Counted from the first letter of the stretch, positions 17,615-41,030 are shown. The stretch is 41,030 nt of DNA from Acidobacteriota bacterium (GCA_022616615.1 JAKEER010000648.1:1-41030); one strand, 5' to 3'. Numbers and translations: made by a program. Notes: generated by a model from the letters alone, not told the origin.

Positions 17615-17789
17615 TCCAGAATCCTCTGACAATCGTCTTCGTCGTCCATCGTGCTCGTCCTCGACCAATGTCGGGTACGGCGACGCGGCGTCGCGCGGGA
17701 CCGCTGCTTGCCACCGCACTACACATGGGGCCGCCCGATGCTTCAGGTTGCCTCTTGAGAATGTATTACCAGGGATTCGCTGATGGAAT

Positions 17790-19295: not shown

Positions 19296-19344
19296 GAATG
19301 CTCCTCCTGTTCAAATCAGGGAATGATAGGCTGGCACACCCAGG

Positions 19345-19430
19345 AAAAGCCGCCACAGAGGGGTGACCTATAGGCGACACCTTAAGATCTCTCGTTTTCT
19401 CTGTGCCTCTGTGGTTGTCTCATCTGCCCC
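19345..19430. repeat. Small inverted repeat with CCACAGAGG/CCTCTGTGG ends
   Basis: It lies in the gap between the DUF1553 stop and the DUF1501 start. Ends GCCGCCACAGAGG (about 19350) and CCTCTGTGGTTG (about 19405) are inverted around a ~45-base centre. It resembles a diverged version of the 14.7 kb element. Confidence 0.65.
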
Positions 19431-19448
19431 AATTCCATGTGGTTCGAC

Positions 19449-22241
19449 TCAGTTAATGTACACGAACTCGTTCGAATTCAGCATGACGTGCACCAGGTCA
19501 GTTAGGGCGTCCAGCGCGACGCGGTCCGCCGAACTAGCTTCAGAACCAGAAGTGGACTCGCGTGTCAGATGGTAGTTCCGCTGCTTCTGGACGAAGGATC
19601 GGGCGCTCTCCAGTTCCTTCTGCTCCGGTTCACGGCTGAGGGCAACGCGATAAAGCGCCTGAATCTGCTTCACAGGTTCATCGCCCGCTGCACGGACGAC
19701 CCGCTCCGCAAAATAACGGGCCTGCATGAGGACAAACTCGTTATTCGACAGCGTGAGCGCCTGCGTGGGAACGGTCGTGGTGTTTCGGCTCTCGCAGGTC
19801 ACGTTTGGGTCGGGTTGGTCGTGAACTTCGAACATCGGATACTTGAGTCCGCGTTTCCAGTAAGCATAGATGCTGCGCCGCCAGTTTGAAGACTCTTCCT
19901 TGGTGAGCTCCCACTTGCCTGCCCGGTAACTCTCTCGCAACGCTTTCGGGATTGAGGGAAAGAACGGTTCTCCTCCTGCCTGAAGGTTGAGCTGGCCGCT
20001 CGCCGCCAGGATAATGTCGCGAATTGCCTCGCCCTCGAGCCGCCGTAATGGAAATCGCCACAGCGTTATGTTCGTGGGGTCCTTCTCCAGGTTAGTGGGA
20101 GGAGCAAAACTGGAGGCCATTTTGTAAGTTTCCGAAGTCATCATCAGCCGGTGCATCTGCTTCAAACTCCACTTTTGACGGACAAACTCGGTGGCGAGCC
20201 AATCCAGTAGCTCCTGGTGAGACGGCGGCAAACCCATCTTGCCAAAATTACCGGGTGTCGGAACGATGCCGCGGCCGAAGTGCCAGTGCCAGATGCGGTT
20301 GACCATAACCCGCGCGGTGAGCGGATTGTCGGGCGAGGCAATCCATTGGGCGAGTGCGCGGCGCCGTCCACTGGTGATGTACCCGTTGCCCGGCGGCTGA
20401 GAAACCGGTGGGCTCCCGCTAACCAGCACTTGCAGGTAGCCCGGTGGCACGACGGCTGATCTCTGGTCCTCGGCGACATCCATACCATTGGCCCCGAAAT
20501 ACACCGGTGGCACTTGATAGGGCTTTCCAGCTTCGGGGAGGAAACAGCATTCAACTCCGTAGTTAAAGCGGTCACCCTTACCGGGCAGCGGCTCATCGCC
20601 CGGCCCGTCGGGTGTCAGCCGATAATCGCCATCACGAATGCCTTCGGCTACCGGTAGCGGCGGCGGCAATTGCTTCTGAATCTCCTCGACCTGCTCCACC
20701 AGCTTCTGCCGGACGTCGTGGTCTACATCATTGACCTTGATCATGCTGCGATAATTCGCGGCCTGATTGGCGGCGGCGTCGGGATCAACGTCCAGCGACA
20801 CAATCTGGGCGGCCAGCAATCTCTGGCCCGGTGTCCTCTGTTCGTCAGGCGTCTTGACGGCAATCTGAATTTCTTCAGGGAACTTCGCCAGTCTTTTCTC
20901 GAAGTTTGCTTTCCGGTAAGGCGCCTCGATCTGCGCGATCTGTCGACGGAGCGGTTTGGTCTGCTCTTCCACTTCCCTCTTGATTCTCTCGTATTCGGTA
21001 ACTTTGTCTGGCGGCACTAGGGGTTGATCGATATCTACGTAGCCGAAAAGCATCGCCATCGTACGGTAATAGTCCTTGCGCGAGATGGGATCGAACTTGT
21101 GGTCGTGGCAGCGGGCACAGTTCACTGAAAGTCCCATAAAGCCCTGGAAGGTGGTTCGTATGATGTCGTCCAGGTATTCATAGCGGTAGTAGGGATTGTC
21201 CTTTTCGCGAAAACGTACTCTGGGCCCGATCCGATAGTAGCTGGTGGCAGTCAGGCTGTCGAAGTCCCTGTCTTCGAGTTCGTCACCCGCCAGTTGTTCA
21301 AGGATGAACCGGTCGTAGGGCTTGTCTTGGTTGAACGCCTTGATGACGTAATCGCGGTAGCGCCAGGCATTCGCCAGATCCTTATCGTGCTCGAAGCCGG
21401 AGCTGTCCGCATAACGGGCCACATCAAGCCAGAAGCGGCCCCAGCGTTCGCCATAATGTGTAGAAGAGAGCAGGCGCTCAATCAAGTTTTCATAAGCACG
21501 GGGCGAGGAGTCGTTGACAAAGGCAGCCACCTCCTGTGGAGTGGGCAGAAGCCCGGTCAGGTCGAGGGTGGCGCGCCGAATCAGAGTGTTCCGATCCGCC
21601 CGCGGCGCCGGCGCCAGGCCCTTCTGATCGAGAGTCTGCTTGATGAAGGCATCGATCGGATGGGCGCTCCAGCGGGCGTCGGTCACCTTCGGAATGGAAT
21701 AACGAATCGGCTTTTGGAAAGCCCACCACTTCCGATCCTGGTCTGTGACTGGCTTTTCCTCATAGTCTTTACCGTAACCGCCGGCGGTCGAATTCTTCTT
21801 TTTGGCATTTTGGTCCTGCGGCCCGGCTGCATTCGACGGGGGCAAGTTTCCAGCTTCCCACTTTGCGCCCTGGTCAATCCAAGACTTCAGAACAGCGATT
21901 TCCTCCGCAGACAGCGGAGACAGCGGGGCCATGGGCATCAAGGGGTGTTCTATCCCAGACACCCGCCGATACATCCGACTCGCCTCAGCATTTCCCGGAA
22001 CTAACGCCGGCCCTTTATCTCCTCCCTTGAGCATCGATTCCCGCGTGCGCACATCCAGGCCAGACATCTGGAGCGCTTCGCCGTGGCATTGCAGGCACTT
22101 CTGCTTCAGGATGGAAGAAGCCCGTTCCTCTGCAGTCTGGGCCTTTTGCGCAACGGCTTGCGACACGGCAAACGCCAGCGACACCAAGGCCAAGCCCAAC
22201 CGGAGTCTGACTCTTGGAGTAATGGGATGTGCCACGCTCAT
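19449..22241 (-). CDS. Planctomycete-type cytochrome c / DUF1549 / DUF1553 protein
   Basis: 930-residue exported protein with signal peptide (RLRLGLALVSLAFAVSQAVA). Domain order: PSCyt1 haem-like site CLQCHGE (Cys49, Cys52, His53); DUF1549 at about 185-400 including SAHPIDAFI, ATLDLTGLLPTPQEV, VARYADSSGFEHD and a second CxxCH in VNCARCHDHKFDPI; a charged helical linker; DUF1553 at about 620-890 with LAQWIASPDNPLTARVMVNR, WHWHFGRGIV, FGKMGLPPSHQELLDWLA, TSETYKMAS and the terminal HVMLNSNEFVYIN. Length and layout are normal. The two haem motifs suggest a redox role in the periplasm. Homologues are tied to polysaccharide degradation by genomic context only. Confidence 0.92.
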   Translation of the reverse strand: MSVAHPITPRVRLRLGLALVSLAFAVSQAVAQKAQTAEERASSILKQKCLQCHGEALQMSGLDVRTRESMLKGGDKGPALVPGNAEASRMYRRVSGIEHPLMPMAPLSPLSAEEIAVLKSWIDQGAKWEAGNLPPSNAAGPQDQNAKKKNSTAGGYGKDYEEKPVTDQDRKWWAFQKPIRYSIPKVTDARWSAHPIDAFIKQTLDQKGLAPAPRADRNTLIRRATLDLTGLLPTPQEVAAFVNDSSPRAYENLIERLLSSTHYGERWGRFWLDVARYADSSGFEHDKDLANAWRYRDYVIKAFNQDKPYDRFILEQLAGDELEDRDFDSLTATSYYRIGPRVRFREKDNPYYRYEYLDDIIRTTFQGFMGLSVNCARCHDHKFDPISRKDYYRTMAMLFGYVDIDQPLVPPDKVTEYERIKREVEEQTKPLRRQIAQIEAPYRKANFEKRLAKFPEEIQIAVKTPDEQRTPGQRLLAAQIVSLDVDPDAAANQAANYRSMIKVNDVDHDVRQKLVEQVEEIQKQLPPPLPVAEGIRDGDYRLTPDGPGDEPLPGKGDRFNYGVECCFLPEAGKPYQVPPVYFGANGMDVAEDQRSAVVPPGYLQVLVSGSPPVSQPPGNGYITSGRRRALAQWIASPDNPLTARVMVNRIWHWHFGRGIVPTPGNFGKMGLPPSHQELLDWLATEFVRQKWSLKQMHRLMMTSETYKMASSFAPPTNLEKDPTNITLWRFPLRRLEGEAIRDIILAASGQLNLQAGGEPFFPSIPKALRESYRAGKWELTKEESSNWRRSIYAYWKRGLKYPMFEVHDQPDPNVTCESRNTTTVPTQALTLSNNEFVLMQARYFAERVVRAAGDEPVKQIQALYRVALSREPEQKELESARSFVQKQRNYHLTRESTSGSEASSADRVALDALTDLVHVMLNSNEFVYIN

Positions 22242-22806: not shown

Positions 22807-25800
22807 CTAGAACAACACTTTCAAAGCGAACTGAATGATCCGGGGATCGCCCGCGCTCCTGTTGGTTCGGACGATCCTCCCAAAGTCGGAGCCCGAGAGA
22901 TTCGAGTTCGGATTGTCAAAGTTTGTCTGGTTGAAGATGTTGAACATCTCAGCGCGGAATTGGACGTTCACTCGTTCCGTGATCTGAGTGTTTTTGAAGA
23001 AGCCCATGTCGAAACTGAACAGGTGCGGGCCGTAGAAGGCTCCAGTACCGATACTGCCGAATGTCCCCGGGACGTTGAGTGCGAAAGCCGCTGGGTTAAA
23101 CCACACCTTTTTGTCCGAGCCAGCCGCCGGCTCTGGACTTACGCCAGTCAGCCTTGCGCGATCGTTGTTCCTGCCCGTGCCCGAGTTGTCTCGGCCGCTT
23201 CGGACGTTATAAGGCGAGCCAGTCTGGTACTGACCGATGCCGGTGGCCTGCCAGCCGTCGAGAAGCTTCTTGAGCACGCCGCTATCCGTATTCAACTTCG
23301 GCAGGTCCCAAACCCACGAGCCCACAACCCGGTGGCGGTGATCAAACTCCATCGGACCGTACATAAGGCGATCAGCGTCTGGGACGTTCCATGGGACTAC
23401 CTCGCCATAAGTGGTCCCCGACACCTGGGTCTCACCGAAATAAGTGCCCAATCCCTTTGCCCAAGTGTAGTTGGCCAAAATGGTGTAGTTCTGAGAAAAG
23501 CGCTTGGTCATCGAAAGCTGCATGGAATGATAATTGGCCCGGCGATCCTGATCAAAGAAGTCGATGTTGCCAAGCTCCGGCGCGAATAGCCGCCGGGCAT
23601 CGGAAAAGCCTGCCGTGCTGGGCAGTGCAGGATTTAACTGCTTGGTGATCCGCCCGTACATCGACGACGAGCCAACGTAGGCAGCCCGTGCCAGCCACTC
23701 CGGGAAGAACTCTCGCTCCAACGTCAAGTTCCAGTTGTAGGTCAGGGGTGTCTCATGCCGCTCGTCGTAAGTCGTCAGCAGCACGGGCCTCGGGAACGGC
23801 GCGTCCTTGCTGCCAATCGCCGCGATCGTAATCTGGTTGAAGTCCGTCCGACCACGATACGGGTCCGAGAACGGCCCTGGCGGCCGCGTCACGCTCAACC
23901 GAAGGCTCCAGGGCGGTGCGTTGACGCCGCCATTATTAAATTCGCCCAGCAAGTGCTGGTCGTAGAACATCCCGCCTCCGCCGCGCAGGCTCGTCTTGCC
24001 GTCGCCAAACAGGTCCCAGGCAAAACCGAACCGCCCGCCCAAGTTGTTGTAGTCCCCCAAGACACCATCTTCGGGCACGCCGGGATCTCCGCGGAACGTC
24101 ACTCCCGGAGGGGCGTTGGTGAACTGGGTCGTGCGCACGCCGTTCTTGAAGTCCTCAATCCTGAACCGCTCGATCCGGCCCCGCACTTCGTGCCACGGCG
24201 GCGTCGGCTCATATCGCATGCCCAGGTTCAGCGTCAGTCGCGGGTGCACTTTGAAGTCGTCCTGGAAAAACAGCGCCGAGTAGGTGGCTCGGTTGTTCTT
24301 GTACTCACCGGTCCCCTGGTCGAAACTATCCAACTGACCCAACAGGAAGTCGGCCAGGGCGTTTCCAGTCCCTAAGGTGGCATTCGGGCGGAATACGTAG
24401 TGGCCAGCCCGGCGGAACTCGTTCACGATATCCGCTCGATAGCGGGCGATCTCTCCGCCGAACTGCAGGCTGTGCTTCCCCCGAATCCAGCTCATGCGAT
24501 CGCTCCACTCAAACCCGTTGCGCACGAATTTGGCTTCCAAATTGTCTCCGATGTTGAAAAATCCGACCGCCTCAATCTGCGCAATGGACGCCAGTGTCGG
24601 ATAAACCGGCAGCCGCACCCCCAGTTCCTGCATGCTCGGCGTGCCGTCCGGCGGAGCGCGCCTCGAGTGGATGCGGTTGTAGCCGAACGCAAAATCGTTC
24701 AGCAGCGAGGGACTGAAAGTCTTCGACCAGGACAAGGCAACGTTCTGTGTCCGCACGCGCGACTGGTTGGAGCCCACGCCGCCGCTGCCAGCGCCCACGT
24801 ACGTCAGCAAATTGTCGTCGTTGTAAATCGAGGCATTGTCGAAGTGGTCGATGAAATAGCGGGCGCTCAGGCGGTCGTTGGACGTCAACTGGTGGTCGAT
24901 CTTGGAGACGAGTTGGTCCAGCTCCTGACCGATGTTGCGGCCGAAGACGATGCGACCGGTGCTACCCCCATCGGGGATAAGCTTGAGAACGTTCACCGAA
25001 GCCGGATCGAACCGGTTCATCGGAATCTGGTTATTCGGGAACGGCTGGCCTGTCGCCGGGTCTCGGACCGTGGTGCTGCCAAAGTCCCCGTTGCGTTGGG
25101 CAGTGGTCGGTGCGGACGCCGTCACGTCGTTAGAGCGATTCCGAATGCGCGTTCCCTGCCAGCCGGCGAAAAAGAATGTCTTGCTTCGTCCATCATAACC
25201 CGGCAGCCTCACCGGCCCGCCAACGAACGCCCCATACTGGTTGCGCTTCAAGAAGTCCGCCTCGCGGGCAAAGGTGTTCCTGGCGTTAAAGGCACGGTTG
25301 CGCAGGAACTCGAATATTCCACCGTGGAACTCGTTGGTCCCAGACCGCGTTACGACGTTGACCATGGCGCCGGCATTGTTTCCCTGCGCTGCTGTGTAAT
25401 TACTCGTTTGGATGCTGAACTCCTGCACAGCGTCGGGAAACGGAAAAGTCTGGTTGTCCTGGAAAAAAAAGTCGGTATTGCTGACTCCGTCTAGCTTGAA
25501 AGCGACTTGGCGGCTCTGCGTACCGTTGGAGGACAATCGCAAGCCTCCGGGAATTGACTTCCCCGTTTCCGTACTAACTGACGCCACCGCCATTCCAGGT
25601 ACGATAGTGGCCAGACTGGCCACGTCGCGACCGTTTAGCGGCAGGTCGACGATGCGCGCATTATCCACGACCTCGCTCAGCGCTGAATTCGTGGTATTGA
25701 CCTGAACGGCTGCCCCAGACACGTTCACCGTCTCGGTGACCGCGCCAACCTCCAGGTTGATATTCACGGTCAGATTCTGGTTGGCCAAGAGTTCGATGCC

Positions 25801-26070
25801 CACGCGGCGGAAGGTTCGAAAGCCAGAGGACTCGACCGATATTTCGTACTTCGTCGGACGCAATGAGGGAAAGACGTACCGCCCGTCTTCGCCCGTGGTG
25901 GTCGCATAAGCAAACGCGGTTCCGACTTCGGTGGCCGTTACCTTGACGCTCGGAACAACCCCCCCGCTGCTGTCTGTTACTACGCCGACAATCTGCCCCG
26001 CCTGCTGGCCGAACACAGAAGTGGCCAGCAGCATGAGGACTCCTGCTGTCCGAAGCAATCGATGTAGCAT
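22807..26070 (-). CDS. Oar-like TonB-dependent outer-membrane receptor 1
   Basis: 1087 residues. A signal peptide (LLRTAGVLMLLATSVFGQQ) is followed by a carboxypeptidase-regulatory-like domain (about 25-105: GQIVGVVTDSSGGVVPSVKV ... GEDGRYVFPSLRPTKYEISV), a plug region (about 115-230: VDNARIVDLPLNGRDVASLA, NTDFFFQDNQTFPFPDAVQE) and a large barrel with repeated aromatic strands, ending in ...IIQFALKVLF with a terminal Phe typical of Bam substrates. Oar-like receptors are abundant in Acidobacteria; the transported substrate is unknown, probably a carbohydrate or peptide. A second, clearly different paralogue follows upstream in the same orientation. Confidence 0.92.
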   Translation of the reverse strand: MLHRLLRTAGVLMLLATSVFGQQAGQIVGVVTDSSGGVVPSVKVTATEVGTAFAYATTTGEDGRYVFPSLRPTKYEISVESSGFRTFRRVGIELLANQNLTVNINLEVGAVTETVNVSGAAVQVNTTNSALSEVVDNARIVDLPLNGRDVASLATIVPGMAVASVSTETGKSIPGGLRLSSNGTQSRQVAFKLDGVSNTDFFFQDNQTFPFPDAVQEFSIQTSNYTAAQGNNAGAMVNVVTRSGTNEFHGGIFEFLRNRAFNARNTFAREADFLKRNQYGAFVGGPVRLPGYDGRSKTFFFAGWQGTRIRNRSNDVTASAPTTAQRNGDFGSTTVRDPATGQPFPNNQIPMNRFDPASVNVLKLIPDGGSTGRIVFGRNIGQELDQLVSKIDHQLTSNDRLSARYFIDHFDNASIYNDDNLLTYVGAGSGGVGSNQSRVRTQNVALSWSKTFSPSLLNDFAFGYNRIHSRRAPPDGTPSMQELGVRLPVYPTLASIAQIEAVGFFNIGDNLEAKFVRNGFEWSDRMSWIRGKHSLQFGGEIARYRADIVNEFRRAGHYVFRPNATLGTGNALADFLLGQLDSFDQGTGEYKNNRATYSALFFQDDFKVHPRLTLNLGMRYEPTPPWHEVRGRIERFRIEDFKNGVRTTQFTNAPPGVTFRGDPGVPEDGVLGDYNNLGGRFGFAWDLFGDGKTSLRGGGGMFYDQHLLGEFNNGGVNAPPWSLRLSVTRPPGPFSDPYRGRTDFNQITIAAIGSKDAPFPRPVLLTTYDERHETPLTYNWNLTLEREFFPEWLARAAYVGSSSMYGRITKQLNPALPSTAGFSDARRLFAPELGNIDFFDQDRRANYHSMQLSMTKRFSQNYTILANYTWAKGLGTYFGETQVSGTTYGEVVPWNVPDADRLMYGPMEFDHRHRVVGSWVWDLPKLNTDSGVLKKLLDGWQATGIGQYQTGSPYNVRSGRDNSGTGRNNDRARLTGVSPEPAAGSDKKVWFNPAAFALNVPGTFGSIGTGAFYGPHLFSFDMGFFKNTQITERVNVQFRAEMFNIFNQTNFDNPNSNLSGSDFGRIVRTNRSAGDPRIIQFALKVLF

Positions 26071-26499
26071 AAAGATGTCCCTCCTGATTTCTTTCCAGAG
26101 ATGATTGGTTTTCCTCGAAGCTCAGGGCCTCGGGGTTATTCTGACGGCAAACCGGATGGCTCCTTTCGAGAGCACGATGATCTCGCGGACTTGGGTCTTC
26201 AATAGTTCGTAGCACACCCCCTGCCGCAAGAAACGCGGGGTCCCCGTTGTAAAAGACCAAGAGAGCAAATCAATATTTCGTGCGTCATGCGCCCAAGGGT
26301 TGCAACGAAGCGGGGGCCTGCCCAGGCACCCTGGAGGGCCCTGGAGGGGCGCGGGAGAGTAGCCTGGGGCAAAGCGTCAGCGACGCCCCAGGCTGGCGTC
26401 CATCCACTTCGGTTACGCCCCGGCAGGGGCACCGGAATCCCATCTCCAGATCCCCCTTGTAAAAGGGGACAGATGCAGAAAGGGCATCGCCTTACCTGG
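26071..26499. repeat. Intergenic region with two repeat types
   Basis: It holds a copy of the core seen near 3.7 kb (GGTCTTCAATAGTTCGTAGC continuing with CACACCCCCTGCCGCAAG, about 26199-26235) and an element at about 26329-26430 with GTAGCCTGGGGCAAAGCG, GACGCCCCAGGC and CGCCCCGGCAGGGGC blocks that recur at the right edge of the window. A CCCCCTTGTAAAAGGGGAC palindrome lies at about 26454-26472. No gene was found; the promoter of receptor 1 must lie in the part nearest 26070. Confidence 0.7.
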
Positions 26500-29400
26500 T
26501 TAGAACACGAATTTCAATCCCAGCTGAATTTCTCGCGGCGTCAGGATCGTTCGGTCAATCTTGCCAAAGGTGCCGGTTCCCTGCGTCGTGGTCGGAGTCC
26601 CGAAACCGAAATGTGGATTATTGAACATGTTGAAGAACTCTGACCGAAACTCGATGGAACGTTTTTCATCGATTGCAAATCTTTTGAAAAGTGACAGATC
26701 GAAATTGACCAGCCCGGGTCCGCGGGCATGGCCCTTGCCTGAATTGCCAAACTGGAACTGCCCCGGAGCAGAAAAGCAACTCGTGTCAAACCACTGTTCA
26801 ACTTTCTTGGGGTGACTTACCTTTGAGCAGGTGATGTTGGCCCAGTTCTCAGTAGTGCCGGCGTTCAACTGAACCGTTGCCACTCTGATGTACATCGCCT
26901 GCCCACTGCGGAGCGTGGTGATTCCGTTGGTCTGCCAGCCGCCGAGAAGGAAATCGACAACCCGCGGAGCATTTGTGAGGAACTTCTTTCCTTTGCCAAA
27001 AGGAAACTCGTACAGATAGCTCGTCACAAAAATGTGCGGGACATCGAATGACTTGCTTCCATTCATCCCCGTTGATGGGCCCCGGTTGAGCTTGTTGTCA
27101 TAGGGCCAGATGACCGAAACGTCGTCAATCGTCTTAGAGAACGTGTAAGACCCAAGTGCCTGCAAACCGGCCGAGAACCGTTTTGAGTACTTGAGCTGCA
27201 GACTGTGATAGTGGGAGGACCCATCGGAGTTTCTTTGGTTGATGGTCTGATTGTTAGGCAACACGCTGAAGTAGGGTCTGCGCGGATCAACTGCTCCCGG
27301 CCCCGGTTGCGCAGCATTAATGTTGCGGTTGCCGCTGAAAAGGTGATAGCCATGATTCCCAACGTAAGCGGCTTCAACGACACCGGAAGAAGAGAGTTGC
27401 CGCTGGATGCTGAGCTGCCACATCGCCACCGTATCCTGGCGGAAATCCCTGGGGATGTAGAACAGCGATAAACCTGGCGGTGGAGTGATCGTGGGAGACA
27501 GCGCCTGAGGAACGTACCCAGGCAGTCCGTCCACACTCAAGCGGGCAAACGGTGCGAATCGGTTTGAGGCGGCCAGAGAGAAGGTCTGGAAGAAGGGATA
27601 GTTGCGCTCCAGCGTTCCCCCGTTGGCGCCGAAGTTACCGGTGAAATAGCCGATCCCAAATGAACCGCGAAAGGCGGTCTTGCCATCATCGGGACTGTAA
27701 GCGAATCCAAATCTCGGTCCAAAGTTTTTCTTTTCGGTATCGATGTTAGGTCCGGTATTGTCGTCGCTCGCAAGCACAAGCTTTCCGGTTGTCAGATCAA
27801 GATTGCTGTGGCGGTTGTGTCGCTCGTGCGGATGCGTGAAGAGGTCATAGCGAAGGCCCAGATTCAGCGTCAGGTTTCGCGTCACTCGCCAGTCGTCCTG
27901 GAGATAGAGTCCGCTGGTGAATATCCTGACCGCCGGCCGCGTGTCCACAATCGACCTGCCATAGTTGTCTGGATAACCCAGCAAGAAACTGGCGAAGGCA
28001 GCCCCGCCTGTTCCGTTGAGACTCGTGACGTTGGTATTGAAGTTGAAAAAGCCTCGAGGGTTCGATTCGGGATTGGTCAGCGTCGATTCGATCCGCTTCA
28101 GATCGGCCCCGAACTTGAGGGTATGAGCGGACTTCACCCAGGTCACGTTTTCGGTGATTTGGTAAGTATTGGAGAGGCGAACCGCGTTGGTGAAACCCGG
28201 CGAGCCCGTGCCCGTCAGGCCCGGAATCGAGAAATTTGCCACCCCTCGGGTTTCAGGAAATGCCGCCAGGTTGCCGTTCCTGATTCCGAATTCGTTGTTC
28301 TTGTCGAGGTTGGAATCAGGTCCGTAGTGATTGGTGTTGAAACGGTTGAAGCCCAGTCGCAGCTCGTTGAGGAGAGTGGGAGTGAATGAATAGGTATGGC
28401 CGATCACCGCGTTGTGATCGCGCGAGTCTGAGTTGATTTCATTGAAGGCGATGAAGGGCGCACCGGGAAGCGACGAACGCAAGGCACGTTTCGAATAGGA
28501 CTCGCGCACGAACAGACGCCCCAGCCGCACAAACTGATAGTCTCCGCGGATGTCAAACTGGTTTACATCCTGCGTTTGAGAGAGGTTTTCGACGTAATTG
28601 TTAGCCAGCCCTGGAAGATTCGGCAAAGGCCAGAGACTCAACGCTCTGACAGCGACCGGGTCCATACGGCCCGTTGGGATCTGGTTATTGGCGAATGCCG
28701 TTCTCTGAGTCGCATCGGCGTTAGAAAGAGGATCATAGATTGGGTTGGCAAATCCTTCACTGGCCAGGAATCTGCCGTCACGCATTGCCTGAGTTGGAAC
28801 GGAAGACACGATCGGCCGTCCGCCGCTCAGTCTCAGTCCCTGATAGTCTCCAAAGAAGAAAGCCTTGTTTTTGACAATTGGACCGCCGAAGGTCCCTCCA
28901 AACTGGTTTGTCTTGAAAGGGTTCTTCTTGATGGCAAAGAAGTCTTTGGCGTTGAGCGCCTCGTTGCGGAGGTATTCAAAAGCCGAGCCGTGGTATTCAT
29001 TGGTTCCTGATCGCAGCGTCAGGTTGACAACGCCTCCGCCAAAGGCGCCGTATTCCGCGCTGGCGCTGTTGGTCTGCACCTTGAACTCCTCAATCGCCTC
29101 GATCGGCGGCGACATGCTGATGAAGGCGTTCAGCGGTTCCTTATTTTCAACCCCATCCATGTAGTAGCTGGTGCCTGACCAAGGCAGGCCGTTAACGCTA
29201 GCCGAAGTGAAAGTGCGCGCGCCAGCCGTTGAACCGGCTTCTGGTGCGGCGCCAAAGCCGGCAGGCACTGCACCCGGCACAAGCTGGATCAGTTGCGAGA
29301 AGATTCTTCCATTCAGTGGCAGCGTTTGAATCTGACGCTGATCGACAACTTCGCCGAGGTCAGAAGTGGTGCTCTGAACCAGTGGCGCCGCGGCGCCCAC

Positions 29401-29778
29401 TACTTCGACGATCTCTTCAACCTTGCCGAGCTCCATCGTCACATCAACGCGCGTTGTTTGGGCTACGCTGACCACAACGTTGCCAGCCACCGCATTGCGA
29501 AATCCGGCTGCCGAAACCGAGACCTTGTAGTTACCCGAGGGAAGCGAGGGCGCCACGTAGTTTCCCTGAGCATCCGTCTGAACCTCCCGGGAAATTCCTG
29601 TCCCTTGGTTTGTGATAGTCACCTTGGCATCCGGGACAACTGCCTGGCTGCTGTCCTGGACTGTGCCAACCAACCTGCCCGTGATCGCTTGACCCCGAGC
29701 CAGCGAACCCAACGCCAGCATCAGTAGAGTGACTGAAACAGCTAAGAACCCGGAACGCTTCATTTGAACTTCAATCAT
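26500..29778 (-). CDS. Oar-like TonB-dependent outer-membrane receptor 2
   Basis: 1092 residues. The ATG at 29778 follows GGAGG at a spacing of about ten bases; a second in-frame ATG is at 29763. A signal peptide (FLAVSVTLLMLALGSLARGQ) precedes a carboxypeptidase-regulatory-like domain (about 34-115, SSQAVVPDAKVTITNQGTGI ... GNYVAPSLPSGNYKVSVSAA), the plug with VVDQRQIQTLPLNGRIFSQL and IEAIEEFKVQTNSASAEYGA, and a barrel ending ...IQLGLKFVF. It shares architecture but limited sequence with receptor 1, so it is an old paralogue rather than a recent duplication. The divergent regulator gene starts about 500 bases away. Confidence 0.92.
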   Translation of the reverse strand: MIEVQMKRSGFLAVSVTLLMLALGSLARGQAITGRLVGTVQDSSQAVVPDAKVTITNQGTGISREVQTDAQGNYVAPSLPSGNYKVSVSAAGFRNAVAGNVVVSVAQTTRVDVTMELGKVEEIVEVVGAAAPLVQSTTSDLGEVVDQRQIQTLPLNGRIFSQLIQLVPGAVPAGFGAAPEAGSTAGARTFTSASVNGLPWSGTSYYMDGVENKEPLNAFISMSPPIEAIEEFKVQTNSASAEYGAFGGGVVNLTLRSGTNEYHGSAFEYLRNEALNAKDFFAIKKNPFKTNQFGGTFGGPIVKNKAFFFGDYQGLRLSGGRPIVSSVPTQAMRDGRFLASEGFANPIYDPLSNADATQRTAFANNQIPTGRMDPVAVRALSLWPLPNLPGLANNYVENLSQTQDVNQFDIRGDYQFVRLGRLFVRESYSKRALRSSLPGAPFIAFNEINSDSRDHNAVIGHTYSFTPTLLNELRLGFNRFNTNHYGPDSNLDKNNEFGIRNGNLAAFPETRGVANFSIPGLTGTGSPGFTNAVRLSNTYQITENVTWVKSAHTLKFGADLKRIESTLTNPESNPRGFFNFNTNVTSLNGTGGAAFASFLLGYPDNYGRSIVDTRPAVRIFTSGLYLQDDWRVTRNLTLNLGLRYDLFTHPHERHNRHSNLDLTTGKLVLASDDNTGPNIDTEKKNFGPRFGFAYSPDDGKTAFRGSFGIGYFTGNFGANGGTLERNYPFFQTFSLAASNRFAPFARLSVDGLPGYVPQALSPTITPPPGLSLFYIPRDFRQDTVAMWQLSIQRQLSSSGVVEAAYVGNHGYHLFSGNRNINAAQPGPGAVDPRRPYFSVLPNNQTINQRNSDGSSHYHSLQLKYSKRFSAGLQALGSYTFSKTIDDVSVIWPYDNKLNRGPSTGMNGSKSFDVPHIFVTSYLYEFPFGKGKKFLTNAPRVVDFLLGGWQTNGITTLRSGQAMYIRVATVQLNAGTTENWANITCSKVSHPKKVEQWFDTSCFSAPGQFQFGNSGKGHARGPGLVNFDLSLFKRFAIDEKRSIEFRSEFFNMFNNPHFGFGTPTTTQGTGTFGKIDRTILTPREIQLGLKFVF

Positions 29779-33603: not shown

Positions 33604-34635
33604 TCACTTGATCGGGTGATAATTCATCCCCAAGGTTATGATCTTTTTCAGCAGCGACTCATACTTCAGGCCGCAATGCTCGGCGGAGTCGGCAAAATCC
33701 TCGTTTTGCGCTATCTGCGGGTTGGGGTTCACTTCGAGCAGGTACATGAGACCATCCTCAGTCATGCGGTAATCCATCCTCGCGTATCCGCTGAGACCGA
33801 GTATCCGGTAGATGCGTTTCGAAAGCCGTTCGAATTCCTTTTTCTTTTGAGGCCCAAGCTCTGCGGGCTGCGTTATCAAGCCGATCTTCTTCTGATAGTT
33901 CACGTCCCATTTGGCTTTACCAGTCGCAATATTCAAAGCGCCGGCGGACAGGTTAGTCATCACCAGCTCCCAAGGCGTATAAGCTTGAAGCCTTTGATTC
34001 CCGATCACTCCAACATAAATCTCGCGCCCCTCAACATACTCTTCGGCAATCGCAGGCGTCTGGTTCTGACGGTGAATGAAATCCACACGCTCTTTCAGCT
34101 TTTCGTCATCGCGCACGACCGAAGCCTGGGCAATGCCGATTGAACCTTCGTCGCTCAAGGACTTGACGAACAGCGGAAATCTCAATCGATTGGGCCGCTG
34201 CCCATTGCGACCGAGCGGGTAAACCGCGAAGCGCGGCACGTGGATGCGATGGTATGCCATGACTTTCTTAGTCAAAGCCTTGTCGCGGCTCAGAGTCAAT
34301 CCCCGCGGATTACATCCCGTATACTTCTGCTTCATCAACTCAAGATAGCTAACCACGTGCTGGTCAAAGAGGGGGTACCCATCAAACTCCTCAAGCAGGT
34401 TGAATGCGACGTGCGGTTTGTGGTCATGAATAGCTTGTCGGATCACACCGAGTTCGCTTCGAACGCCGACGGGCTGGACTTCATGTCCCATTCCGCGCAG
34501 CGTTGAAACCACGTCGTACTCAGTCCGCCAAGGCTGGCTTTTTTTGTCATCCACGCCAGCCAAGGTCTCGGGCGGCAGCAATTCTTCCTGCGCCAGCACA
34601 ATGATGCGAAGCCTTCTCGTGCCCCTCTGACTCAT
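33604..34635 (-). CDS. ATP-grasp ligase, D-Ala-D-Ala ligase-like
   Basis: 343-residue soluble enzyme of the ATP-grasp superfamily, which forms an amide between a carboxylate (activated as acyl phosphate) and an amine. Visible: an N-terminal domain with VAFNLLEEFDG (77-85), Lys119 and Lys158 (FPLFVKSL) as ATP contacts, the flexible SDEGSIGI loop (161-168), EEYVEGREIYVGV (198-210), and metal-binding Asp288 (ARMDYR), Glu301 and Asn303 in LLEVNPNPQI. It is closer to Ddl-like ligases of secondary roles than to housekeeping Ddl: no peptidoglycan genes are near, and the gene overlaps a zinc metallopeptidase by four bases (ATGA at 34632-34635). Substrate is unknown. Confidence 0.88.
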   Translation of the reverse strand: MSQRGTRRLRIIVLAQEELLPPETLAGVDDKKSQPWRTEYDVVSTLRGMGHEVQPVGVRSELGVIRQAIHDHKPHVAFNLLEEFDGYPLFDQHVVSYLELMKQKYTGCNPRGLTLSRDKALTKKVMAYHRIHVPRFAVYPLGRNGQRPNRLRFPLFVKSLSDEGSIGIAQASVVRDDEKLKERVDFIHRQNQTPAIAEEYVEGREIYVGVIGNQRLQAYTPWELVMTNLSAGALNIATGKAKWDVNYQKKIGLITQPAELGPQKKKEFERLSKRIYRILGLSGYARMDYRMTEDGLMYLLEVNPNPQIAQNEDFADSAEHCGLKYESLLKKIITLGMNYHPIK

Positions 34636-35762
34636 AGGGCAATCCTGTGATAGCCCGAGTGAATCCCGTTCATGGTCTGAACCGTCAAGAGCACAAGCAG
34701 CCTATGCCTGGTATGCGCTTCTGTCAGGCCGAGCCGCAGCTTCAGTTCCCTGCAGCGGTTAATTATAGTGATAAACATTTGATGAATCGCGTAACTGTGC
34801 ACGCCGGTCCCTTCTGCAACGTCCTGGCAGAGTTCGCGGCGGTGACGTTGGAGGAAACTGACCGCACTCGAACAGTGTTTGTGGCGAGGCTCGGAGGAGA
34901 AGATGCGAAGCAAATCGCGATCATAGTCAGGCGGCCAGTGAAACGCATAATGCCGGCGCTTACTCCGATAATGCTCGCGCAGAGTCATGACAATGTCAGG
35001 CAATTCTTCGAACGTCTGGCGCGACTTATTGAATGAGGGATTTCCCGCGATTGCTTTCATGATTTGGTTGACATACTCCAGCTTGTTTAAGGCAGGCCAT
35101 CCCTCGTACTGTCTTCTCCATCTCGACCCGGCTGCAAGCCAAACGGCAAAGGTTTCGGCAAAATCTTCGGCGGGATGTGCTTGCGCATACCAGGCCGGGA
35201 GATGCAGAACATAGTTGCGGCTATGGGGTTCTGGTGTGTACCAGTCAGGATACCGGCGCGCGAATGAACCGAACAACCTACGGTAATGCGGCCTGATATG
35301 AAGGCGAAACGCATTGTCTATTGCATGACCAGCTTCGTGCCGCATAATCCGGAGACAATCCTTCTCAGTGCCGCCTTCGACTTCGAGCATCTGTTTGCGC
35401 TCCAGTTTAGACAAGCGAGGATGGGCAAGATAGAAGGGCATGGCGAAGCCGGGGATCTGGTCAGGTGTGAACCACTCTTTGGACAACCAGACATGAGGCT
35501 TAAAACAGAGGCCGCGTGCCTCCAGCTCTTTGTAAAGCCGGTCAAGACGGTGTTCCAACGGCGAGCCTTTGATGCTTAAGGGCAGGTCGCAAAGGCGCGT
35601 ATCGAGCAACTGCTCGTCGGTCATGGTATCCAACGCTCTTACCGGGAGCCCTATCCTGCAGCTCATCTGGAATTTTTTCAATCGCTTGCCCCGCAACACG
35701 GCGCCCCCACCCCTTATTAATGATTCAGCGCCTGACGCTATCGAGCTGCCTTCAGGAGTCAT
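34632..35762 (-). CDS. Putative zinc-binding metallopeptidase (Peptidase_Mx-like)
   Basis: 376 residues, or ~330 if translation starts at an internal ATG (Met33 or Met47); conservation seems to begin near DTMTDEQLLDTRLCDL, and no start has a strong ribosome-binding site. The core motif is RHEAGHAIDNAFRLH with the zinc HExxH at His142, Glu143, His146, and a downstream HPAEDFAETFAVWL (196-209) that should supply the third ligand (Glu199 or Glu203). Other conserved parts are PHVWLSKEWFTPDQIPGFAM and LEVEGGTEKDCLRI. No signal peptide is evident, so it is cytosolic. Coupling to the ATP-grasp ligase gene suggests that the two act on the same peptide-like substrate, which is inference. Confidence 0.82.
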   Translation of the reverse strand: MTPEGSSIASGAESLIRGGGAVLRGKRLKKFQMSCRIGLPVRALDTMTDEQLLDTRLCDLPLSIKGSPLEHRLDRLYKELEARGLCFKPHVWLSKEWFTPDQIPGFAMPFYLAHPRLSKLERKQMLEVEGGTEKDCLRIMRHEAGHAIDNAFRLHIRPHYRRLFGSFARRYPDWYTPEPHSRNYVLHLPAWYAQAHPAEDFAETFAVWLAAGSRWRRQYEGWPALNKLEYVNQIMKAIAGNPSFNKSRQTFEELPDIVMTLREHYRSKRRHYAFHWPPDYDRDLLRIFSSEPRHKHCSSAVSFLQRHRRELCQDVAEGTGVHSYAIHQMFITIINRCRELKLRLGLTEAHTRHRLLVLLTVQTMNGIHSGYHRIAL

Positions 35763-36535: not shown

Positions 36536-36774
36536 GTCCCCGGAGGGGACCAATTTGAATAGCCCCGGGTGGCGCGTCAGGCTGCGCCACCCGGGGTAAA
36601 TGTCGCCAAAGACACCAACCCTGAAAGGGTCGAGCAGGAATGGTACCTTTGAAGATTGCCGAAGTTTGGTTCAACCCTTTCAGGGTTGGATCTGAAACGT
36701 TCTTGCTACCGTGGGTTTCGCTCTGCGCTGCTGCGCTCAACCCCCGGCTATTCATATTAGTCCCCTCCGGGGAC
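36536..36774. repeat. Nested inverted repeat with GTCCCCGGAGGGGAC ends
   Basis: Outer palindromes GTCCCCGGAGGGGAC (36536-36550) and GTCCCCTCCGGGGAC (36760-36774), each followed or preceded by a shared AATttGAATAGCC segment, enclose inverted copies of CAACCCTGAAAGGGT (about 36636) and ACCCTTTCAGGGTTG, and a GCCCCGGGTGGCGC/GCGCCACCCGGGG hairpin. It is a ~239-base structure without coding content. Confidence 0.75.
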
Positions 36775-37312
36775 AACAGAGAATCAAGCTCTGTGTCAAG
36801 CAAAGGACTTGTCGGACACGCCCCCCGTCTCAAGGCAGAGGCCATGAAGGTCATACCTCCGAGTCAGGGCGCTTGAGAGACGCGACTTTTCCACGAAAGG
36901 CCGCGAATGTTCTTACTGTGCCTCAACTCCAGCAGGGGTCCGTCTTCCCGTCTTTTGCCGCGTTTTGGGGCCGCGGCGCAGTTCCTGAAAGCCACAAAAA
37001 AACCCTGAGCGCGTTTAGAAAGGCGTCGTCCAAGGAACCAATTTCGTTTGTAGTCCTGGCTTTAGCCGGAAAACCGGCGCTCCGTGCCGCCTAAAGGACG
37101 GACTACGAAGTAGCGAGCACCCTCAGACCGCCGAGGGTAGCGTCTCCGTCGACCGCGGCCCCCTCACCCGGCCTTCGGCCACCCTCTCCCCACAAACGGG
37201 AGAGGGAGTTGCCTTCGAATTCGACCGAACTTTGAACTTGGTCGCCAGCAAGTGAAACTAGAGAGGCATCTTTAAACACTCCTCTGAGAAACCCTGAGAA
37301 ACGGAGGGTACG
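36775..37312. other. Gene-free upstream region of the gpgS operon
   Basis: It contains a GTAGTCCTGGCTTTAGCCGG/GGACGGACTAC inverted pair at about 37051-37108 and a CCTCACCCGGCCTTCGGCCA hairpin near 37161. The last ~80 bases (37230-37312) should hold the operon promoter; ACGGAGGGTACG just before 37313 gives the ribosome-binding site. No gene was found. Confidence 0.55.
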
Positions 37313-38530
37313 ATGGCGGACTTTTACCAAAACATCGTTCCGACCTTTACGCGACTCGAAAACGAAGATCTCATCGAGATGGAAGAATCGCTGACAAAAG
37401 CCGCTGTTCGCTTCCCGATTGGCGTGATCATTCCGGCGCTGTTCAAGGATCTTTCTTCTGCGGCAATGAAAAACATCATTCGCGAGCTCTCTACCATGGG
37501 CTTTATTAGCCGTGTTTACATCAGTCTGGATCGCGGAACTCCTGAGGAATATCGGGAAGCGCAGAAAATTGTACAGCCGCTGAAGAGCAGGGCTCGTGTC
37601 TTATGGAACGATTCACCGGCAGTGCAGTCGGTGATTGCCAGGATCAACGAGACCCTTCCGGTCGGCCCGCGGGGCAAGGGTCAGGCGATTTGGACGGCAT
37701 TAGGTTATGCCTTAGGGAAGAGCGAGGTCTCTGTAGTTGCCTTTCACGACGCAGACGTTCTTACATACGATCGAGGATTTCTGCTGCGACTGCTCTTTCC
37801 GGTGGTGCGGCTGCGTTACCAGTTTTCCAAAGGGTTCTACGCGCGCTATTCTGACCGTTTGCACGGGCGCGTCGTGCGGCTGTTTTACTTTCCTTTCGTC
37901 AAAGCGCTGCGAAAGATCCTGCAGAAGATCGAGTTTCTCGAATACATGTCTGACTTCCGCTATCCGCTTTCGGGCGAGATTGCCACGTTTGCCAGCATCG
38001 CCAACGAGCTTCGCTTTCCCTCCGACTGGGGGATTGAGGTTGGGATCCTGTCGGAGATGTATCGCATCGTGCGGCCCCATCGAATCTGCCAAGTAGAAAT
38101 CACACCGCGTTACGATCATAAGCATCAAGACGTCGGACATGACCCGGCTTCTGGTCTGGCCCGCATGGTCTCCGACATCGCGCGCACATTTTTCACCCAA
38201 CTCAGCTCCAGCGGATGCGTTCTGAATACGGATACTTTGCGCGCGCTGAAGCACACTTACATGGCCAACGCCCGGGCGTACGTGAAAACCTACGAAGATC
38301 ATTCCAAGATGAGCGCTCTAACCCAGTTTGATATGCATCAAGAGTTGGGTTCGATCGAGATGTTTGCCAGCGTTCTGGATAGTGCTTTCCAAGAATTCCA
38401 AAGCCATCCCTTTGGTTCGCCCCTTATCCCCGAGTGGCGGCGCATTGAAGTAGCCCTAGAGGGCATCTTGTCAGAATTGGCCGCCGCATTTGACAACCCG
38501 CGGTCAAAAGTCGCAGCGAGGCCGGTATGA
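37313..38530 (+). CDS. gpgS: Glucosyl-3-phosphoglycerate synthase-like glycosyltransferase (GT81)
   Basis: 405-residue cytosolic retaining glycosyltransferase. By family it transfers glucose from an NDP-glucose to 3-phosphoglycerate, the first step to glucosylglycerate, a compatible solute. Motifs: PIGVIIPALFKDL (35-47), VLWNDSPAVQ, the GKG loop (121-123), metal-binding Asp146-Ala-Asp148 in FHDADVLTYDR, FSKGFYARYSDRLHGRVVRL (171-190), the acceptor region YPLSGE (217-222), SDWGIEVG (237-244) and YDHKHQ (267-272). The ATG at 37313 has GGAGG upstream. It is followed by another glycosyltransferase and an MscS-like gene. No dedicated phosphatase (gpgP) is in the window. Confidence 0.85.
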   Translation: MADFYQNIVPTFTRLENEDLIEMEESLTKAAVRFPIGVIIPALFKDLSSAAMKNIIRELSTMGFISRVYISLDRGTPEEYREAQKIVQPLKSRARVLWNDSPAVQSVIARINETLPVGPRGKGQAIWTALGYALGKSEVSVVAFHDADVLTYDRGFLLRLLFPVVRLRYQFSKGFYARYSDRLHGRVVRLFYFPFVKALRKILQKIEFLEYMSDFRYPLSGEIATFASIANELRFPSDWGIEVGILSEMYRIVRPHRICQVEITPRYDHKHQDVGHDPASGLARMVSDIARTFFTQLSSSGCVLNTDTLRALKHTYMANARAYVKTYEDHSKMSALTQFDMHQELGSIEMFASVLDSAFQEFQSHPFGSPLIPEWRRIEVALEGILSELAAAFDNPRSKVAARPV

Positions 38531-38574
38531 ACTGGACAAGCGGCGTGCCTTAAAAGATGGGATGAAAAGAGTCA

Positions 38575-39882
38575 ATGAAAGAGAATGTCCAAAATAACCT
38601 TTCCAGTGAACTCCTCACTCGCCTGAACGAAATCGGTGAAGCCGAGATCGTTGTGGGGATCCCCAGCTACAACAATGCGCGCACCATCGGTCATGTCGTC
38701 CGAGCCGTCAACGCCGGCTTGGCGAAATACTTCCCGGAGCGGAAATCGCTCATTGTCAATTCGGACGGCGGCTCGAACGACGGCACACGCGAAGCCGTGC
38801 TTAGAGCCGAGTTAGACGTCGACTCGGTCTTGCTGGTTTCGCACCCGGTTCGCCTGGTTTCAAGGATCAGCACGCCTTATCATGGCATCCCAGGCAAAGG
38901 GAGTGCCTTCCGCACTATTTTTGCCGTAGCCAAGCACCTGAACGCTAAGGCTTGCGTGGTGGTCCATTCGGACCTGCGCAGCATAACCCCGCAATGGGTG
39001 GAGCTACTGGCAAAGCCAATCCTGGAGCGCGACCTGGATTACATCGCCCCTTACTACCTGCGCCACAAGTACGACGGCACAATCACCAATAGCATTATCT
39101 ATCCCATCACACGCAGTCTGTTTGGTAAGCACGTGCGGCAGCCCATCGGCGGTGAATTCGGTCTCTCCGGTCGATTGGCTGCTCACTACCTGGAGAAAGA
39201 GGTCTGGGGAACGGACGTGGCTCGTTTCGGGATTGATATTTGGATGACCGTTACCGCGATCGCCGAAGGATTCCGCGTGGCGCAATCCTATCTGGGCGCG
39301 AAGCTGCACGACGCCAAAGATCCCGGTTCAGATCTCACCAGCATGTTCCGGCAAGTTGTAGGTTCAGTCTTTGGATTAATGGAAACTTATTCTTCCGTGT
39401 GGCAGGCGGTGAACGGTTCGCAGCCGGTGCCAATGTTTGGCTTTCCCTTTGAAGTGGGAGTGGAGCCGATCTCGGTCAACGTTGAGCGGATGATCAAGAC
39501 CTACCGGCAGGGCGTTTCAGATCTTCGTGAGATTTTCCAAGATTTTCTCTCACCGCAGACCTTTCAGGCCTTGACCCCTTGTGCAGAAAGGAGCGGCGAG
39601 GATTTTCGAATCCCGGACCTGCTTTGGGTGCACCTGATTTATGAATTTGCGGCGGCGTACCATCACAAGGCGCTGGATCGCGATCACTTGATGCAGTCCC
39701 TGGTGCCGCTGTACCTGGGCCGCACGGCATCTTTCGTCTTGGAAGTGCGAGAAAGCAGTGCAAGCGAGGTCGAGCAACGCATCGAAAAGCTATGTAATGT
39801 CTTCGAAGCCGAGCGACCGTATCTGCATCACCACTGGAACGACAGATCCAGAAAGGAGAAAGACTATGCCAGGACTAATTGA
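38575..39882 (+). CDS. Second glycosyltransferase (GT-A fold, GT2/GT78-like)
   Basis: 435 residues. The GT-A core shows GIPSYNN (29-34), DGGSNDG (64-70), a GKG loop (107-109), a DxD-equivalent SDLRS (133-136 region; first Asp replaced by His-Ser), QPIGGEFGLS (189-198), GIDIWMTV (219-226) and KLHDAKDP (243-250). The QPxGGE/GIDIW/KxHxxKDP pattern resembles mannosylglycerate synthase-type (GT78) and related compatible-solute transferases. In the GpgS context it could add a second sugar (for example mannose to glucosylglycerate or its phosphate) or make glucosylglycerate directly; neither is proven. A helical C-terminal extension (about 260-435) follows. It overlaps the next gene by 17 bases. Confidence 0.8.
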   Translation: MKENVQNNLSSELLTRLNEIGEAEIVVGIPSYNNARTIGHVVRAVNAGLAKYFPERKSLIVNSDGGSNDGTREAVLRAELDVDSVLLVSHPVRLVSRISTPYHGIPGKGSAFRTIFAVAKHLNAKACVVVHSDLRSITPQWVELLAKPILERDLDYIAPYYLRHKYDGTITNSIIYPITRSLFGKHVRQPIGGEFGLSGRLAAHYLEKEVWGTDVARFGIDIWMTVTAIAEGFRVAQSYLGAKLHDAKDPGSDLTSMFRQVVGSVFGLMETYSSVWQAVNGSQPVPMFGFPFEVGVEPISVNVERMIKTYRQGVSDLREIFQDFLSPQTFQALTPCAERSGEDFRIPDLLWVHLIYEFAAAYHHKALDRDHLMQSLVPLYLGRTASFVLEVRESSASEVEQRIEKLCNVFEAERPYLHHHWNDRSRKEKDYARTN

Positions 39883-40570
39883 AAAAGCCGTTATCGAGCC
39901 TTTCCACCGGCTGGCCCAACAGCTGGCGCTGGTTGTTCCCGCCCTAATCACTGTGCTGGTGATCTTAGTCATCGGAGGCGCGCTCGCCTATGTGGCGCGG
40001 CTGCTGACTTACCGCTTGCTTGTGGCGACCCACTTTGACCGCCTGATGATCCAGACGGGCGTGGCGAGCACGATTGATCGGGCGCGTGTTTTTCGCTCAC
40101 CCAGCGATTTCGGTGCCAGGCTGGTTCAGGGGGTTTTGTGGATGTTTATCATCCTGCTTGCTCTGAGTGCGACCAACGCTCAGATGACTCAGGACCTGGT
40201 GGTCCGTTTTGTGAACTATGTGCCAGACATCATTGCGGCAACGCTGGTTCGATTGCTCGGCTCGGTGGTCAGCAAATTCCTGGCGCGCAGCGCGCTCCTG
40301 GCTGCTGTGAACTCACACTGGTCGGGAGCGCGTCTCATTGCGGGAGGAGTCCGGTTGCTGGTCATGAGCTTGGCCGTGGTCATTGCCCTCGAACAGCTCC
40401 GCATCGGGCGCACCGCGCTGCTCGTCAGTTTCGGGATACTGTTTGGAGGAGTCGTCATCGGAGGAGCCATCGCTTTCGGCTTTGTGGCCCGGGATCTGGC
40501 CCGTGAGTGGGTGCAATCGATTCTGAAGTCTCGTGCATCCGAGGATGAGGAAGTCTTCCGCCACCTGTGA
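39866..40570 (+). CDS. MscS-like membrane protein lacking the cytoplasmic beta domain
   Basis: 234 residues. The ATG at 39866 has AAGGAG eight bases upstream and lies inside the end of the preceding gene, so the frame open from 39758 is not used. About five hydrophobic segments (near 18-47, 83-107, 113-140, 157-178 and 184-212) resemble the conserved TM-helix repeat of small mechanosensitive channels; the last is Gly-rich and ends AIAFGFVARDLAREWVQ, like the pore-lining helix of MscS, but the protein stops soon after, without the beta domain and vestibule. Position at the end of a compatible-solute operon fits osmotic release or sensing; that role is inferred. Confidence 0.75.
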   Translation: MPGLIEKAVIEPFHRLAQQLALVVPALITVLVILVIGGALAYVARLLTYRLLVATHFDRLMIQTGVASTIDRARVFRSPSDFGARLVQGVLWMFIILLALSATNAQMTQDLVVRFVNYVPDIIAATLVRLLGSVVSKFLARSALLAAVNSHWSGARLIAGGVRLLVMSLAVVIALEQLRIGRTALLVSFGILFGGVVIGGAIAFGFVARDLAREWVQSILKSRASEDEEVFRHL

Positions 40571-41030
40571 GTTCTGTTCTTGATGGTATGGTAACAGAAT
40601 GCGAGGAACTTTTGCTCGGGCTCATCCTCCTCGTCGTCCTCGTCCTCGGCTTTGCGCGGCGGTCGGTCCAAGTGAAGGTTTAGCCTTCAATGCTGCTGCT
40701 CAGGCCGAGTACGAGGACGAGCCCAAAGTGCAAGCTGTTTTTGCAGGCACTTCGTAAGAGGAGCGACGGGTTCCGTGAGGCTGCCAAGCTTTGACTGAGG
40801 GCATGAGTCTGGAGACGGCTTGCGTCTTTGCAAGTCGGTGATTCTCCATTTGTCTGGAGACGGTATGACGACAAAGCGCGGAGAGGTCTGCGCCAAGAGC
40901 TCTGGAGATTGGACATTTTTGCCCCGGACGGGGCAATGGACGGTAGCCTGGGGCAGAGCGAGGGACAGCGGTCCCTCGCGACGCCCCAGGGATCCGGACC
41001 ATCGTGAACCTCTGCCGCCCCGGCAGGGGC
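40571..41030. repeat. Gene-free right edge with repeats
   Basis: It contains a CTCGTCCTCGGC/GCCGAGTACGAGGACGAG inverted pair (about 40637-40722), a duplicated GTCTGGAGACGG motif (40808 and 40853) and, from about 40921, a CCCCGGACGGGGC palindrome, then GTAGCCTGGGGCAGAGCGAG, a CGAGGGACAGCGGTCCCTCG hairpin and CCCCGGCAGGGGC. The last part matches the 26.33-26.43 kb element and is cut by the window edge. No gene was found. Confidence 0.7.

Follow-up and report, generated by a model that had tools for sequence, protein, structure and literature searches.

We found that a gene for a glycosyltransferase with the predicted fold of mannosylglycerate synthase (MgS) and a gene for a small protein that looks like an MscS-type pore domain form a pair kept across bacterial phyla, and that in Acidobacteriota the catalytic residues of this transferase are retained almost only in genomes that also encode a GpgS-like protein. 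In the genome studied here the pair follows a gene for such a GpgS-like protein. We hold with moderate confidence that the three genes make up an operon for a compatible solute of the glycosylglycerate type, in which the second transferase would act on an unphosphorylated glycerate compound with the membrane protein (Msc) as its partner.

The window, by which we mean the whole stretch of DNA analysed, is contig C24, 41030 bases long, from a draft assembly of 9.58 Mb that is 94% complete and has an estimated contamination of 8%. The three genes lie on the plus strand toward its right end, and the features used in the text are as follows.

37313–38530, plus strand: gene 1, GpgS-like (GT81-type) glycosyltransferase, predicted, 405 aa
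38575–39882, plus strand: gene 2, GT78-like glycosyltransferase (predicted mannosylglycerate-synthase fold), 435 aa
39866–40570, plus strand: gene 3, putative MscS-type pore-domain membrane protein (PF05552), 234 aa
38965–38973, plus strand: codons of H131-S132-D133 of gene 2, CAT TCG GAC
38500–38622, no strand: mosaic breakpoint zone, left side matching the GpgS of G038/G040, right side matching the GT-Msc of G123
40571–41030, no strand: downstream stretch without an MpgP-family phosphatase gene, the contig ending at 41030

The group is real. Genes 1 and 2 have unbroken reading frames that share a strand, and the preliminary description of a GpgS-like protein, a second transferase and an MscS-type protein lacking the beta domain was borne out by intact frames and domain matches for all three. 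The start of the third gene had been put at 39758, that of the mechanical open reading frame (39758–40570). The true start is almost certainly the ATG at 39866, which is preceded by AGAAAGGAGAAAGACT, because a strong ribosome site (AGAAAGGAGAAAGACTATG) serves it and the resulting protein of 234 aa fits the family length of about 229–239 aa. With this start gene 3 overlaps gene 2 by 17 nt, so that the overlap described earlier held. No tRNA was found near the three genes, and promoter and terminator scans around the operon gave nothing above chance.

Several other features were seen elsewhere on the contig. An inverted repeat at 36536–36774, with 41-nt arms that are 85% complementary, contains GTCCCCGGAGGGGAC and lies in a stretch without convincing genes. 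On the minus strand, a D-Ala-D-Ala-ligase-like ATP-grasp protein overlaps a putative zinc metallopeptidase (Peptidase_Mx, marginal) at 33604–35762, and the two look like a small peptide-ligase/peptidase pair. A deoxyhypusine-synthase family protein (PF01916, 241 bits), here in a bacterium, is encoded at 4741–5850 on the plus strand. Finally, a series of genes for PQQ propeller, DUF1501 and PSCyt1/PSCyt2/PSD1 proteins occupies 14889–22241 on the minus strand; these proteins form a combination known above all from Planctomycetes, and two large CarboxypepD_reg/OMP barrel proteins (22807–29778) lie next to them.

Gene 1 aligned end to end with the GpgS model NF040724 at 272 bits and did not reach the curated cut-off of 700, which canonical-looking relatives likewise failed to reach (372 bits for L003). 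It also matched PRK13915 and, at the level of sequence, solved structures of GpgS and MpgS. As in GpgS proper (GT81; M. tuberculosis GpgS, 3e25), the metal-binding DxD is kept: the DAD motif (D146-A-D148) is intact, and both of its Asp residues were invariant in 36 sequences. The acceptor motif at residues 185–188 differs, reading GRVV instead of GRVT, so that the acceptor Thr is absent; in M. tuberculosis GpgS, Thr187 of GRVT binds the carboxylate of 3-phosphoglycerate (PMC2581804). The GRVV form is common to the window gene, L148 and G038 and is confined to genomes of the same family, the other GpgS relatives shown having GRVT or a variant that retains Thr. Gene 1 is thus predicted to encode a GpgS-like protein of GT81 type that would transfer a glucosyl group from NDP-glucose to 3-phosphoglycerate, the GpgS label being less safe for it than for the others because of the missing Thr.

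Gene 2 scored marginally above the cut-off of the MgS model (PF21969 MGS_GT, 28.1 bits with a cut-off of 27) and gave a weak sequence match to the GpgS model PRK13915 (52 bits), while a profile comparison between genes 1 and 2 gave a probability of 95% over 162 columns. Structure prediction gave a model of high confidence (pLDDT 90, pTM 0.89), which Foldseek matched to MgS of Rhodothermus marinus (GT78; PDB 2bo4, 2y4j) with, for 2y4j, an E-value of 8e-16, a TM score to the target of 0.72–0.73 and 408–412 aligned columns. The full-length MgS fold is present in the model, its C-terminal helical domain included, whereas GpgS was matched over only about 280 columns as compared with about 410 for MgS. 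The acceptor motif GTIT (168–171) and H245 are kept, with Ile170 and Thr171 corresponding to the glycerate-binding pair Ile138/Thr139 of MgS. Sequence identity to MgS is about 20%, and gene 2 further differs from MgS in being tied to GpgS and to a minimal MscS protein. The model suggests a GT78-like enzyme with the fold of mannosylglycerate synthase, which may transfer a sugar to an unphosphorylated glycerate compound; its sequence would fit glucose or mannose as donor, and glycerate or glucosylglycerate as acceptor, without separating them.

The motif HSDLRS at residues 131–136 of gene 2, singled out as unusual in the preliminary description, is indeed present, with the first Asp of the DxD replaced by His so that HSD stands where MgS has DAD. 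It is a peculiarity of the window copy: Asp was found at both 131 and 133 in 80/80 external homologues, so that HSD as a family trait was rejected. Among 82 aligned copies H131 is unique, the only other altered DxD being the DAS of a paralogue on contig C176, and its CAT codon is one base from the Asp that the family has at this position. D133 and H245 are retained; in MgS and GpgS the second Asp and the His are metal ligands (PMC2581804). Internal stops that appeared in tblastn stretches of gene 2 relatives were taken as alignment run-on beyond the true stop.

Gene 3 matched PF05552 at 41.6 bits (cut-off 22) as its sole Pfam match. The MscS beta-domain model did not match it, and the C-terminal cage is also absent. 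The predicted structure of the 234 residues is all-helical and showed a weak match to the transmembrane part of MscS (86 columns, rmsd 3.5); a fold search of the PDB yielded no convincing full-length match, and a profile search retrieved MscS-type entries only, at marginal scores. We take gene 3, from its sequence, to encode a probable MscS-type pore domain without a beta domain, which might function as a channel. CmpX of Pseudomonas aeruginosa, which we presume to belong to PF05552, is by description also a small MscS-homologous membrane protein, but cmpX is found in cfrX-cmpX upstream of sigX and not beside a transferase. CmpX has been proposed to be a membrane sensor and not a plain osmotic valve (PMC10965496).

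The gene order was compared in an external set of 80 loci from other genomes, obtained by a scan of the collection and coming mainly from Nitrospirota, Acidobacteriota and delta-type lineages, with Zixibacteria also represented. Gene 3 lay directly behind gene 2 in all 80 (79 by tblastn, L036 by protein clustering). Among 101 relatives of the same class, Msc was found beside the gene 2 homologue in 39 of 40 cases, the exception (G087) being a short contig piece, and 39/39 proteins of the gene 3 Msc type adjoined a gene 2 homologue, one of them (G109) inferred across a contig break. The gene order is thus conserved across genomes to an extent that far exceeds chance. Fusions of gene 2 with gene 3 were not found in the loci examined.

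GpgS was encoded locally in 45 of the 80 external loci, and genomes without a local gene had a match elsewhere in 32/34 cases (E < 1e-70 in 31/34). In 297 Acidobacteriota genomes, gene 2 was present in 80 and GpgS in 54, with 49 genomes having both, 31 the transferase only, 5 GpgS only and 212 neither, a co-occurrence with a Fisher p of about 6e-29, uncorrected for phylogeny. An MpgP-family HAD phosphatase was present in 43 of the external loci, and two MpgP-like members that were tested both scored above the TIGR01486 cut-off. Some loci hold additional genes for glycerate kinase, trehalose or glycogen enzymes, or ABC sugar transporters. A 387-aa transferase-like protein with no Pfam or NCBIfam match is encoded between the phosphatase and gene 2 in L008 (6831–7991), and also in L009, L013, L015 and L031. 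In the 2.7 Mb genome G316, gene 2 occurs several times, in full or in part (C15, C57, C90, C176, C311), some of the copies being short frames.

No phosphatase gene was found in the 460 bp from gene 3 to the contig end, so that its reported absence holds for the operon itself, but neither for the genome nor for the relatives. An MpgP-family phosphatase gene lies directly downstream in the nearest relatives, and contig C764 of the same assembly encodes one at 224 bits (cut-off 165). Contigs C464 and C764 also hold additional GpgS genes, and both, like C176, resemble the window in tetranucleotide use (r 0.93–0.95); although the assembly is partly contaminated, the four contigs likely derive from one genome. 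The missing phosphatase is therefore a local matter only, and we rejected a pathway without this enzyme. The earlier suggestion that the second transferase might use the phosphorylated intermediate is unsupported for the same reasons, and because the acceptor of MgS is unphosphorylated glycerate.

A solute of the glycosylglycerate type is likely in view of the conserved gene order, the co-occurrence with GpgS and the phosphatase in the operons of relatives, and it would probably guard the cells under salt stress. In the proposed pathway, GpgS would produce glucosyl-3-phosphoglycerate, from which an MpgP-family phosphatase, encoded in the operon of relatives and in trans here, would strip the phosphate. 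The MgS-like transferase would then attach a sugar to an unphosphorylated glycerate compound, for which glucosylglycerate is the likeliest candidate, so that the product would be a di-glycosyl-glycerate of the mannosylglucosylglycerate (MGG) type. The PF05552 protein, as an obligate partner of this transferase, would probably gate solute release or sense turgor. Petrotoga mobilis has MGG pathways that use GpgS with MggA/MggB or MggS; by description the Petrotoga and Rhodopirellula systems share with the present one two transferases and a HAD phosphatase acting on glycerate glycosides, and we know of no Msc partner described for them. MGG is established as a solute in both Petrotoga and Rhodopirellula, and Rhodopirellula baltica accumulates it (PMC3694870).

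The relation between gene 2 and GpgS also extends to catalytic state. Four catalytic positions (D131, D133, T171 and H245) were scored in 111 Acidobacteriota copies of gene 2, leaving out the window's own genome, in which GpgS coexists with an HSD and a DAS copy, both altered. All four positions were intact in 62/62 copies from genomes with GpgS, whereas at least one was lost in 46/49 copies from genomes without it, G339, G249 and G263 having an intact gene 2 despite lacking GpgS. Altered motifs include DAS, SPD, GAE, GSE and ASN, and the altered gene was followed by Msc in all 43 copies with the flank present. Close pairs of altered copies had dN/dS values of 0.04–0.19 compared with 0.03–0.17 for catalytic ones; the altered copies are thus under purifying selection and are therefore functional proteins. 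A tree built without the motif columns needed three changes of catalytic state, two of them forced by well-supported branches. A phylogenetically corrected test was left with only 2–3 independent pairs; every one agreed with expectation, but their number does not suffice for corrected significance of the link between catalytic state and GpgS. There is also a clade of 40 catalytic gene 2 copies with no Msc adjoining, in several members of which the transferase gene lies beside GpgS and a HAD phosphatase gene; Msc is accordingly unnecessary for synthesis, since this large clade keeps intact catalysis.

The catalytic role of gene 2 thus accompanies GpgS, while the link to Msc is a feature of one half of the gene 2 family, catalytic or not. 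That the pair persists after catalytic loss points to the two proteins being directly linked in function, and suggests a second, non-catalytic and Msc-linked role for the gene 2 protein. The coupling of making and releasing a solute that was first proposed for these genes fits the catalytic operons, but release through Msc would not account for the survival of the pair in GpgS-lacking genomes. One rival to the solute operon is that the chief task of the gene 2 protein lies in the cytoplasm, where it would serve the minimal MscS-type protein as a partner or regulator; catalysis would be dispensable, and the protein a pseudoenzyme where GpgS is absent. We regard this as a serious possibility though not the probable one. 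The altered residues in genomes without GpgS (none of the 62 copies with it being altered), the constancy of Msc beside them, the constraint on their sequences, the roughly three separate losses and the tie of every protein of this Msc type in the class to a transferase all speak for it; the small number of independent losses, the lack of fusions, the catalytic clade without Msc and possible metal-independent catalysis by other residues speak against it. It is equally tentative that a compatible-solute transferase repeatedly became a conserved, non-catalytic partner, in the cytoplasm, of a minimal MscS-type membrane protein, the pair being the lasting unit and synthesis dispensable.

The window operon itself departs from this pattern. 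The second gene 2 copy of its genome, on C176, reads DAS and clusters with that of G035, a genome of the same genus with DAS and no GpgS, so that neither copy of the assembly has a full DxD. The window GpgS shared 83% identity with its unlinked counterpart in G038 and 84% with that in G040 (a partial match), both from the same family as the window genome, but only about 40% with GpgS from linked operons, whereas the transferase and Msc were each 76% identical to those of G123, from another family, with the gene order GpgS-GT-Msc-HAD. At the DNA level similarity to G038/G040 stops at 38499 and that to G123 starts at 38623. The window operon is thus a mosaic, with GpgS from one lineage and GT-Msc from another. 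A dispersed repeat lies upstream of the window GpgS (37110–37269), with copies directly downstream of Msc on C176 (L090:7048–7203) and near the unlinked GpgS of G040 (L149), and may have helped the exchange. With a replaced GpgS whose acceptor residue is changed, no local phosphatase and H131, the second transferase of the window may be weak or already moving to the non-catalytic, Msc-linked role of relatives that lack GpgS. We consider it rather doubtful that the operon is a decaying relic whose loss of function shows in D131H, a phosphatase encoded elsewhere and a divergent GpgS: H131 is unique, and both the paralogue and the same-genus G035 have DAS, but all three frames are intact, gene 3 has a good ribosome site, gene 1 keeps its DxD and its high identity to G038, and the metal ligands D133 and H245 are retained.

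The main biochemical alternative, which we consider unlikely, is that the second transferase works in one step, as MgS of Rhodothermus does, and makes mono-glycosylglycerate from D-glycerate in parallel to the GpgS/phosphatase route, the two routes yielding the same or two different solutes. The full-length fold match, the PF21969 score, the conserved Ile-Thr pair and the adjoining glycerate kinase genes of some operons would fit such an enzyme, but a parallel route needs no GpgS, yet intact copies occur almost only with it and catalytic residues are gone where it is absent.

MgS (GT78), GpgS (GT81), MpgP and PF05552 proteins are all known families. A literature search brought up no publication on the GT-Msc pair or on its form as a pseudoenzyme, which is weak evidence as most subscription journals lay outside the search, and none linking glucosylglycerate to Nitrospira physiology. 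So far as we found, little work exists on glycerate-glycoside solutes in Nitrospira, Acidobacteriota and further bacteria of soil or sediment, for which the solute-operon reading provides a testable genetic link between glycerate-glycoside synthesis and an MscS-type protein. That catalytic state divides so cleanly with the presence of GpgS suggests a pairing of a pseudo-glycosyltransferase and a channel-like protein, which, if true, would bear on the regulation of MscS-type pores without a cytoplasmic cage.
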